Of a DNA stretch of 64,000 nucleotides, positions 16,801 to 62,615 are shown in pieces. The stretch comes from Flavobacterium sp. ACN2. GTDB taxonomy: Bacteria; Bacteroidota; Bacteroidia; Flavobacteriales; Flavobacteriaceae. A program made the translations under genes and the position numbers. The stretch lies in the NCBI RefSeq assembly GCF_002303885.1, contig NZ_MRCM01000002.1, positions 248,001-312,000 of the forward strand. The letters are read 5' to 3'. How positions within the stretch are numbered: the first letter of the stretch is position 1; each line of letters begins with the position of its first letter. The notes under the pieces were generated by a model. The model ran no database searches and was not told the origin of the DNA. It was given only the letters and a program-made list of their open reading frames with translations.

Positions 16801-16848
16801 GGTATTTTTTAGGAGCAGAAGCATTTAGTTTTCAGAAACAACTTCTGT

Positions 16849-16916
16849 CCCGCTATCCACTATATCTTTTCCTGTCTAAAGAAGCCAGAAAAAGGATACC
16901 GTTCCTATCGGGGCTA
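16849..16916 (+). repeat. Structured CCCGCT...CGGGGCTAA element, copy 1
   Basis: The outer arms CCCG/CGGGG enclose an inner stem ATCTTTT/AAAAGGAT with a variable tip. A second copy with the same conserved blocks but a different loop lies at 37124-37195 on the minus strand. The pattern suggests a dispersed structured RNA or palindromic element. Confidence 0.6.
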
Positions 16917-16954
16917 AAAAACAACTATTATTTTTCAGAAGAACTTTAGTAAAC

Positions 16955-37064: not shown

Positions 37065-37123
37065 TTTGCTTCGGATATTTTTTTGTTCACATTAATTCCA
37101 AAAGTGCACTATTGCTGGCTCAT

Positions 37124-37195
37124 TAGCCCCGATTGAAGTGGAAATCCTTTTGATTTTTTTCTTTAAAAAAGCAAAAGATTGCAACGAAAAGCGGG
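37124..37195 (-). repeat. Structured CCCGCT...CGGGGCTAA element, copy 2
   Basis: On the minus strand the blocks CCCGCTTTTCG, ATCTTTT, AAAGAAA, AAAAGGAT and CGGGGCTAA are in the same order as in copy 1 at 16849-16916. Outer and inner stems are conserved while the loops differ. It lies between the SAM-I riboswitch and metH part 1. Confidence 0.6.
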
Positions 37196-37304
37196 AACTG
37201 TTGACTGCAAAAATGCGCCAATGATTCGCTCCTGATACAGAATCTGTTTCAGTAAATATTATATGTTATCGAGAAAAGTTTTGAGAAATACGAGTATGTA
37301 TTTG

Positions 37305-58923: not shown

Positions 58924-58959
58924 TAAAAAAGCCCTTTCGGATGGCGACCAAAAGGGCTT
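58924..58959 (-). terminator. Attenuator terminator A
   Basis: On the minus strand AGCCCTTT and AAAGGGCT form the stem, followed by TTTTTT. The 5' arm includes CTTTTGG (58954-58948), which can pair instead with CCAAAAG (58999-58993) in the last codons of leader A. A 17-bp palindrome TTATAGTTTAACTATAA (58958-58974) sits directly before it. Confidence 0.85.
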
Positions 58960-58989
58960 ATAGTTTAACTATAACAAAGATTGTCTCTT

Positions 58990-59070
58990 TCACTTTTGGC
59001 AACAGCAAATTGGGATGCACATTTGCATCATCTCACAACACATCATATTTCCTTTTGCTATTGTTTTCAT
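58990..59070 (-). CDS. Leader peptide A (26 aa), Met/Cys-rich attenuator before metY
   Basis: This ORF was read directly on the minus strand. It starts MKTIAKG, then NMMCCEMMQMC (residues 8-18) and CCC (22-24), and ends QK. It has 6 Met and 6 Cys in 26 residues. The codons for Cys24, Gln25 and Lys26 contain CCAAAAG, the antiterminator strand for terminator A, whose stem begins about 31 nt after the stop. This is the layout of amino-acid attenuators such as trp and his: stalling on Met or Cys codons would leave CCAAAAG free and allow readthrough to the 58-aa ORF and metY. Translation is not proven. Confidence 0.75.
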   Translation of the reverse strand: MKTIAKGNMMCCEMMQMCIPICCCQK

Positions 59071-59137
59071 TTTTATTTAAAATTTGAATTCGACTATTTT
59101 TTAAATTCGACTAATTCGATAGAGTAAATGTAATAAG

Positions 59138-59156
59138 TATTTTTTTAACGACCAAA
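59138..59156 (-). promoter_or_regulatory. Shared upstream motif, copy A, within the leader A promoter
   Basis: On the minus strand TTTGGTCGTTAAAAAAATA occupies the -33 region. TACATTTA about 20 bp further is a good -7 box. The same motif precedes leaders B and C. Confidence 0.55.
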
Positions 59157-62204: not shown

Positions 62205-62273
62205 TTACAATAGTGTCTCTGCGGATAACTCCGGCATCTTACAAGACATCATATTGCAAACTGTAAATTTCAT
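62205..62273 (-). CDS. Leader peptide B (22 aa), Met/Cys-rich attenuator before the TonB receptor
   Basis: This ORF was read directly on the minus strand. It starts MKFTV, then CNMMSCKM (residues 6-13), and ends PELSAETLL. The control codons would be Cys6, Met8, Met9, Cys11 and Met13. Codons 18-19 (GCA GAG, preceded by C) repeat the 3' arm of terminator B and can pair with its 5' arm. The terminator stem starts 26 nt after the stop. The design is the same as leader A. Translation is unproven. Confidence 0.7.
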   Translation of the reverse strand: MKFTVCNMMSCKMPELSAETLL

Positions 62274-62452: not shown

Positions 62453-62615
62453 GAAACAGAGGAAAAATTTGAACTGATTGCAACCTCTTCATAATGAAAT
62501 GATTTCGTTATGAATGCTGAAAGATTCATTTCAGTAGTAAAAAATGCTAAAGCAGGAACTCTCCTTTAGCCCTTTTTAGCAATTACTTTCCCTGCTTAAA
62601 TTTTTAAAAACTAAT
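62453..62615 (+). ncRNA. SAM-II-like riboswitch with inserted hairpins, upstream of metK
   Basis: P1 pairs AGAGG (62458-62462) with CCTCT (62484-62488). The loop carries ATTTGAACTGATTGCAA, which matches the SAM-II loop (GAUUUAAC..UAUUGCAA). The 3' pseudoknot strand AAAAAATGCTAAAGCAGG (near 62549-62566) matches AUGUAGCUAAAAAGG. Between them, where the minimal aptamer has about seven bases, lie two hairpins: TTCATAA/TTATGAA and CTGAAA/TTTCAG. The 3' strand is also the left arm of a second stem (TAAAGCAGG with CCTGCTTAAA, near 62599) followed by TTTTT, which could act as a terminator in one of the states. The leader ends 20 nt before metK. Confidence 0.75.

Follow-up and report, generated by a model that had tools for sequence, protein, structure and literature searches.

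Operons of the trp/his type are controlled by ribosome-mediated transcription attenuation, and methionine control is usually described via SAM riboswitches, Met T-boxes or repressors. In 2020, Canestrari reportedly described leader peptides with runs of Cys from Actinobacteria/mycobacteria. Leader ORFs that code for Cys, and that are thought to sense it, lie before cys genes in Actinobacteria; conserved terminator hairpins are not reported at these leaders, nor are conserved RNA structures ahead of the Met operons of Actinobacteria (PMC1262725). In Salmonella, mgtCBR has tandem attenuators, with a pair of short ORFs inside a single long leader (PMC3641672). Closer to the present case, a transcriptome study of F. 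psychrophilum gives strong indications that leader peptides attenuate amino-acid synthesis operons in Flavobacterium; "methionine" occurs 0 times in its main text, and its passages on this attenuation name no Met or Cys case (PMC9723704).

The Flavobacterium leader units described here resemble trp/his-type attenuators in having a leader ORF with control codons, a protector, an antiterminator, a terminator and a cognate operon, and differ from them in their Met and Cys codons, in standing as two serial units, in being shared by a set of Met/Cys operons and in belonging to Flavobacteriales. With the actinobacterial Cys-run leaders they share a Cys-coding leader ORF before cys genes, but they have Met codons and an intrinsic terminator with competing pairings; a Cys run near the stop codon without a conserved terminator, which is the actinobacterial type as described in PMC1262725, does not fit them, the terminator being conserved in Flavobacterium. 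Compared with mgtCBR, the genes are different, both ORFs are rich in Met/Cys, and each ORF has its own terminator. What appears to be new is the use of Met codons, the serial units and the regulon; the attenuation mechanism, Cys leaders (Actinobacteria) and tandem leader ORFs (mgtCBR) are already known. Our literature search, which most subscription papers lay beyond, found no Met-codon leader attenuator.

The window, that is, the whole 64,000-nt stretch of Flavobacterium sp. ACN2 DNA that was analysed, holds four such units: one before a TonB receptor (unit 1), the reported one before metY (unit 2), and a weaker second pair before metX (units 3 and 4). A preliminary description of this DNA had pointed out a 26-codon ORF with six Met and six Cys codons, a strong terminator, a small ORF and metY, all of which are present on the (−) strand. 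The unit 2 leader ORF (MKTIAKGNMMCCEMMQMCIPICCCQK, 59070–58990) has 26 codons, with 6 Met (start included) and 6 Cys. Segment 1 (CAATAGCAAA, 59063–59054) is the 5′ arm of the protector and pairs with TTTGCTGTTG (59009–59000), and segment 2 (TTTGCTGTTGCCAAAAG, 59009–58993) is at once the 3′ arm of the protector and the 5′ arm of the antiterminator. The terminator (58959–58929; 12 pairs, then a T run) has segment 3 (CCCTTTTGG, 58956–58948) as its 5′ arm and segment 4 (CCGAAAGGG, 58940–58932, then the T run) as its 3′ arm. CCAAAAG (58999–58993) is complementary to CTTTTGG (58954–58948) of the terminator 5′ arm, at the very positions first proposed. A small ORF of 58 aa (58898–58722), with no match in Pfam or NCBIfam, lies between the terminator and metY (58602–57298; O-acetylhomoserine aminocarboxypropyltransferase/cysteine synthase; TIGR01326, 648 bits), and a homoserine dehydrogenase follows (57071–55983; PF00742, PF03447).

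The composition of the unit 2 leader is exceptional. With the start codon excluded, its 11 Met+Cys place it at the top of the 736 ATG ORFs of 7–60 aa in the window (runner-up 5). When the 634-nt intergenic stretch was shuffled 5000 times with dinucleotides preserved, the number never rose above 6. The control codons are likely codons 9–18 (MMCCEMMQMC). Cys codons 22–24 fall within the antiterminator arm (TTGCTGTTGCCAAAAG) and are variable among relatives, and are probably retained partly for RNA pairing. The parts of an attenuator can all be found in the sequence, namely leader codons, an intrinsic terminator, a competing antiterminator, a 1:2 protector and cognate biosynthetic genes. We consider it highly probable (roughly 0.86) that the Met/Cys leader unit works by ribosome-mediated transcription attenuation and responds to the levels of charged tRNA-Met and tRNA-Cys. 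The preliminary description had read the same geometry in this way and had named conserved Met/Cys codons and alternative pairing in orthologous leaders as the check; both are conserved, which supports its reading. Beyond it, our analysis adds three further units in the window, shows that units stand in tandem, and brings in a protector helix and a regulon.

The gene metY is present in 84 of 150 genomes of the genus and in 136 of 199 genomes of the family. Among the 30 nearest genus loci (the window's own counted), every one has a Met/Cys-rich ORF upstream of metY. We compared 86 Flavobacterium metY loci, which are 86 of the 87 listed matches, the window's own included and a second copy of 52% identity (in genome G006) left out. 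At least one unit (Met/Cys ORF, antiterminator arm and terminator) lies upstream in 80 of the 86, and in 39 both unit types stand in tandem directly before metY, within 800 nt. Of the six loci without a unit in the scan, L113 offers no more than 194 nt of upstream sequence, and L107 does show a unit when read by eye; the terminator scan overlooked both L107 and unit 1 of the window, which were recognised by reading. Leader and terminator are also present at 79 of 80 loci from named relatives, a set that overlaps the 86; these relatives are nearly all Flavobacterium, and the nearest metY, 100% identical, is that of F. tyrosinilyticum. The unit 1 type has the arm CCGCAGAG and a CCTCTGC..GCAGAGG terminator, and the unit 2 type has the arm CCAAAAG and a CCCTTTTGG..CCRAAAGGG terminator. 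In the window and in 19 near relatives (L118–L136), units 1 and 2 are separated by a 948-codon receptor gene, which is broken into two ORFs at two of these loci, and unit 1 therefore heads the receptor there. Two genomes have two metY copies (L069/L080 in G111; L033/L076 in G030), one copy under a unit 1+2 pair and the other under a second-type pair.

Three competing pairings are predicted for each unit: the protector (1:2), the antiterminator (2:3) and the terminator (3:4). For the antiterminator, near-identical units were removed, leaving 62 of 78 unit 1 and 58 of 71 unit 2 cases. The unit's own arm beat the average swapped arm in 56/62 (unit 1) and 46/58 (unit 2). A shuffle test was passed by 58/62 unit 1 antiterminators and by only 28/58 of unit 2, more than 10 of 200 shuffles giving an equally good duplex in the other 30. 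The arms co-vary, for example from CAGAG/CTCTG to CAGCG/CGCTG (L042, L046) and in TGYGGG/CCCRCA types (L075, L078, L079, L090). Pairs were counted in alignments A1 and A2, with 35 and 34 of the 62 and 58 units, most divergent subtypes and some close ones being left out. For unit 1, 93.6% of cells are paired in the antiterminator and 99.0% in the terminator, each reached by 0/500 shuffles, and few antiterminator pairs are changed on both sides (1 pair; 55/500 shuffles). For unit 2, the terminator reaches 97.1% (0/500 shuffles) and the antiterminator 90.5% (21/500); the covariation score of the latter was reached by 47/500 shuffles, and slid controls score similarly. Covariation of the two stems had been suggested as a further check in the preliminary description: the terminator pairing of unit 2 is indeed conserved, but the covariation of its antiterminator is weak.

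The predicted protector is a third conserved pairing, completing a trp-like set with antiterminator and terminator. It joins the start of the leader to a stretch at or beside segment 2, with two-sided changes such as CAATAG/CTATTG and CAACAG/CTGTTG. We tested 57 of 60 unit 1 leaders and 45 of 58 unit 2 leaders, the unit 2 leaders omitted being mainly arm-after-stop leaders and a few long ones. The own pairing was better than the swapped one in 40/57 for unit 1 (−9.57 vs. −7.47 kcal/mol) and in 36/45 for unit 2 (−9.78 vs. −7.06 kcal/mol); only 34/57 and 29/45, respectively, passed the shuffle test, divergent units being weak. In folding of the full-length RNA the terminator is most stable, and the antiterminator is best only with the polymerase at the end of segment 3. 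Since equilibrium favours the terminator, switching would have to be under kinetic control.

The leader ORFs also bear signs of coding. Across lineages, the unit 1 RNA arm is read in two frames (TCC GCA GAG = SAE and CCG CAG AGG = PQR), and a second, compensating shift restores the frame up to the stop codon. Gap runs divisible by three number 141/156 in the coding part and 1/104 after the stop codon for unit 2, and 130/166 (coding) and 45/173 (non-coding) for unit 1, counts that are supporting evidence only, because the rows were picked as ORFs.

With ample Met and Cys, the ribosome would translate as far as the stop codon, where it would sit on segment 2 (TTGCCAAAAG), and the terminator would form. 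A shortage of charged Met-tRNA or Cys-tRNA would instead hold the ribosome at codons 9–18, covering segment 1 and freeing segment 2, which could then pair with segment 3 and let the polymerase continue into metY. In the lineage of the window, unit 1 would act likewise on the TonB receptor. Where other relatives have both units in series before metY, repression should be tighter and the response steeper. A Met-codon attenuator would sense the charged tRNA of an amino acid that is required for both the start and the elongation of proteins, and it would raise the question of how a leader could be startable and yet stalled in Met shortage.

Outside the genus, metY is often preceded by another kind of control. 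Among the 28 best of the 134 other-genus genomes with a match in the family scan, 21 carry SAM-I (S-box, RF00162) ahead of the orthologous metY, 6 have a leader there, and 1 has neither (L054, with 383 nt upstream). SAM-I was found upstream of metY in 0 of the 86 Flavobacterium loci; two RF00162 matches (L028, L030) lie downstream of the gene. The contrast with SAM riboswitches drawn in the preliminary description is borne out, with SAM-I in 21 of the 22 leaderless loci from other genera and in none of the 86. While the SAM-I aptamer senses SAM, no SAM-I or SAM-II aptamer match was found at the Flavobacterium leaders, nearby SAM-II matches being on the opposite strand. Rfam at gathering score gave no known RNA family at the leaders of the window and the genus loci, and the T-box model was absent from the matches at that score in the window and loci. 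With SAM-I at some orthologous metY genes and a leader at others, two sensors can be compared on the same gene as nature has placed them. In many relatives a SAM-II match lies near the metY units on the strand opposite to the leaders, as it does in the window.

Similar leaders are found away from metY. Leaders were detected with a Met+Cys filter that is symmetric for both residues, and models R1 and R2 (thresholds 0.01 and 0.001) match 124 and 123 of the 150 genus genomes, respectively, weak matches being partly noise. In various genomes, leaders precede metX-thrA, cysE-cysK, cysH-D-N, cystathionine-type PLP genes, metH, OsmC-hom clusters and the TonB receptor. The occurrence is patchy: filter-passing leaders stand at only 7/30 cysE and 8/30 cysH loci (one of the 8 at 615 nt), the search gave no leader ahead of cysH in the window itself, and none in 11 of 40 loci (L168–L207) or in 7 of 18 further loci, one of these 7 (L425, in G291) having a Met-rich ORF at an R1 match. 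Outside the genus, R1 matches at ≥56 bits in 16/197 other genera, with a Met-rich ORF at each match; matches of R2, the leader 2 model, below ~50 bits in other genera were discounted as mostly AT-rich and terminator-like. A scan of 246 genomes of the order gave 11 matches in other families, all weak (≤59 bits); of four inspected, one has nothing, and the other three have leaders, which stand ahead of cysH-D-N, metX and metY. At two loci (L421, 5950–5710(−), and L432, (−)), two Met/Cys-rich leaders in tandem precede genes whose translations read as an EamA-like transporter and an amino-acid permease of 481 aa, which are candidate Met/Cys importers. In another genus (L428), a Met-rich leader (MKNFYRRNMIMMNKCMKMYQLFYGQKRKS) is followed, after some 700 nt, by a periplasmic binding protein (PF01497) and apparent ABC transporter genes.

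The codon content of the leaders varies with the operon. The median Cys/(Cys+Met) is 0.75 for cysE (n = 7), 0.63 for OsmC/hom-led clusters (n = 6), 0.57 for cysH (n = 11), 0.44 for metY (n = 130), 0.20 for metX (n = 11), 0.06 for metH (n = 2), and 0 for PLP genes (n = 3). This set does not include leaders whose first recognised gene is a TonB receptor, metK or sulfite reductase or is >700 nt away, nor metY-set leaders >50 aa. The Cys share is higher in cys operons (median 0.67, n = 18) than in met operons (0.43, n = 152; p = 2e-6), also when the cys-operon leaders are compared with the 22 met leaders other than those of metY (p = 3e-4), p-values that are a guide only, because the sequences are related. 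The OsmC/hom-led leaders, with their high median, run against this trend. Within genomes, the trend holds in 11 of 11 that were grouped by hand, a number that includes close relatives (G061, G406 and G524; G009 and G011) and, except in G077, leaves out OsmC/hom-led leaders; with these added, two genomes are opposite (G129, 0.60 vs. 0.67; G033, 0.75 vs. 0.86) and one more agrees (G055, 0.67 vs. 0.38). We think it probable that the Met and Cys pathways of Flavobacterium form one attenuation regulon. In it, serial leader switches would precede genes of synthesis, sulfate assimilation and transport, each leader would have a Cys:Met mix matched to what its operon makes, and at metY the leaders would stand in place of the SAM riboswitch of other genera. 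If true, this would be the first Met-codon attenuator, and metY would be a gene that has exchanged a metabolite sensor for a codon sensor. Such graded content would be a testable code, predicting substrates for the TonB receptor, the EamA-like transporter and the amino-acid permease. In addition, hisG of the ACN2 genome (L435) has a His-rich leader ORF (MISIQLHHHHLHYCSQAMC) and a terminator upstream; from this and the F. psychrophilum transcriptome, classical attenuation is to be expected in Flavobacterium.

The same attenuation could sense Met only, with the Cys codons secondary or serving RNA pairing, a reading that overlaps the main one and that we consider unlikely as a full account. The most distant leaders of the genus are almost free of Cys and have Met runs (L109, MIFNTNTMMMAMMMMNMMMFTTPYCLKSTS), several leaders from other genera have no Cys (L210, L211, L213, L217), and Cys codons 22–24 of the window's leader lie within the antiterminator arm, all of which agree with Met sensing; the leaders before cysE and cysH-D-N are instead Cys-rich and Met-poor (L193, MKFTCCNKCACMGIISAGVCCCI; L417, MRTISGIQILTCCCTMTMCCCNCCCLKLPFLRR), which speaks against it. 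The loss of Cys in distant leaders also counts against a Met/Cys peptide, or a small Cys-rich protein, that would sense metals or redox state. The CC and MM clusters do look like metal ligands, and a TonB receptor lies upstream, yet the recognised downstream genes are those of Met/Cys synthesis; metal sensing was set aside on these genes, and we find it barely credible.

Arrest peptides, such as TnaC, SpeFL and plant CGS1, stall the ribosome in another way, and Met, Cys or SAM in the exit tunnel could do so here, the stalled ribosome working on the same hairpins. Outside the Met/Cys runs, however, the leader sequence is little conserved, with other residues, length and arm frame all varying, and the Cys:Met ratio changes with the operon; comparison of the leaders by reading revealed no conserved peptide near the stall site, and an arrest peptide appears very improbable. 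We give an equally small chance to a new metabolite-binding riboswitch with an incidental ORF. A conserved structured leader before Met genes, where other genera carry SAM-I, would suit it, but the leaders have no Rfam match and their conserved parts are the arms of competing helices and an ORF with a retained frame. Attenuation by a translated leader with Met and Cys control codons remains our preferred reading.

The other units of the window lie in a run of Met/Cys genes: metH, sulfite reductase, cysN, cysD, cysH, metX, thrA, metY, homoserine dehydrogenase and metK (names beyond those with profile matches were read from translations). The unit 1 leader ORF (MKFTVCNMMSCKMPELSAETLL, 62273–62205(−)), with segment 2 (CCGCAGAG) at 62224–62217, is unexceptional in composition alone (equalled in 65/5000 shuffles). 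It is followed by a terminator (AACCTCTGC-cgaaac-GCAGAGGTT and T run, 62179–62150(−)) and by the TonB-dependent receptor (62083–59237(−); PF00593, PF07715). Alike stretches of the form TTTGGTCG..TAAAAAA stand before unit 1 (62330–62300(−)) and unit 2 (59155–59130(−)), and we take them to resemble the Bacteroidota promoter. Judging from the sequence, unit 2 may have a promoter of its own where the receptor intervenes.

Units 3 and 4 (55729–55593 and 55580–55417) have leaders with less Met/Cys than units 1 and 2 and with lower match scores. Unit 3 consists of the leader ORF MNLKVNKMFCAISVKTEAGVSIA (55729–55658(−); 38.0 bits) and an AGCCTCC..GGAGGCT terminator with T run (55623–55593(−)). Unit 4 has the leader ORF MQNLKIQYKSQMNKSLQMNKMFTVALICAYVC (55580–55482(−); 40.5 bits), an antiterminator arm after the stop codon (TACTAAAAG, 55481–55473(−)) that is complementary to CTTTTGGTA (55446–55438), and the terminator AAACCCTTTTGG..CCAAAAGGGTTT (55451–55417(−)). 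This pair precedes a 66-aa ORF (55335–55135(−)), for which a Pfam search gave no family, a SAM-I riboswitch (RF00162, 54944–54837(−), 75.5 bits) and metX. In genus relatives, going by coordinates, R1 and R2 match also at the equivalent site downstream of metY. A unit 2-type terminator precedes both the 58-aa and the 66-aa ORF, and the two have a common C-terminal pattern (SLLFHLYDLEEEGEDILA / SLLFLMYSKENETLFI) and look paralogous. Both metX and metH have a SAM-I riboswitch ahead of them, and the divergent metK has a SAM-II match (62453–62560(+), 47.6 bits); riboswitch and leader control would thus be in use side by side in the ACN2 genome. The window also has two Flavo-1 RNA matches, at 37121–37202(+) (77.5 bits) and 16842–16919(−) (71.3 bits), one of which lies near the SAM-I riboswitch of metH, but on the opposite strand.
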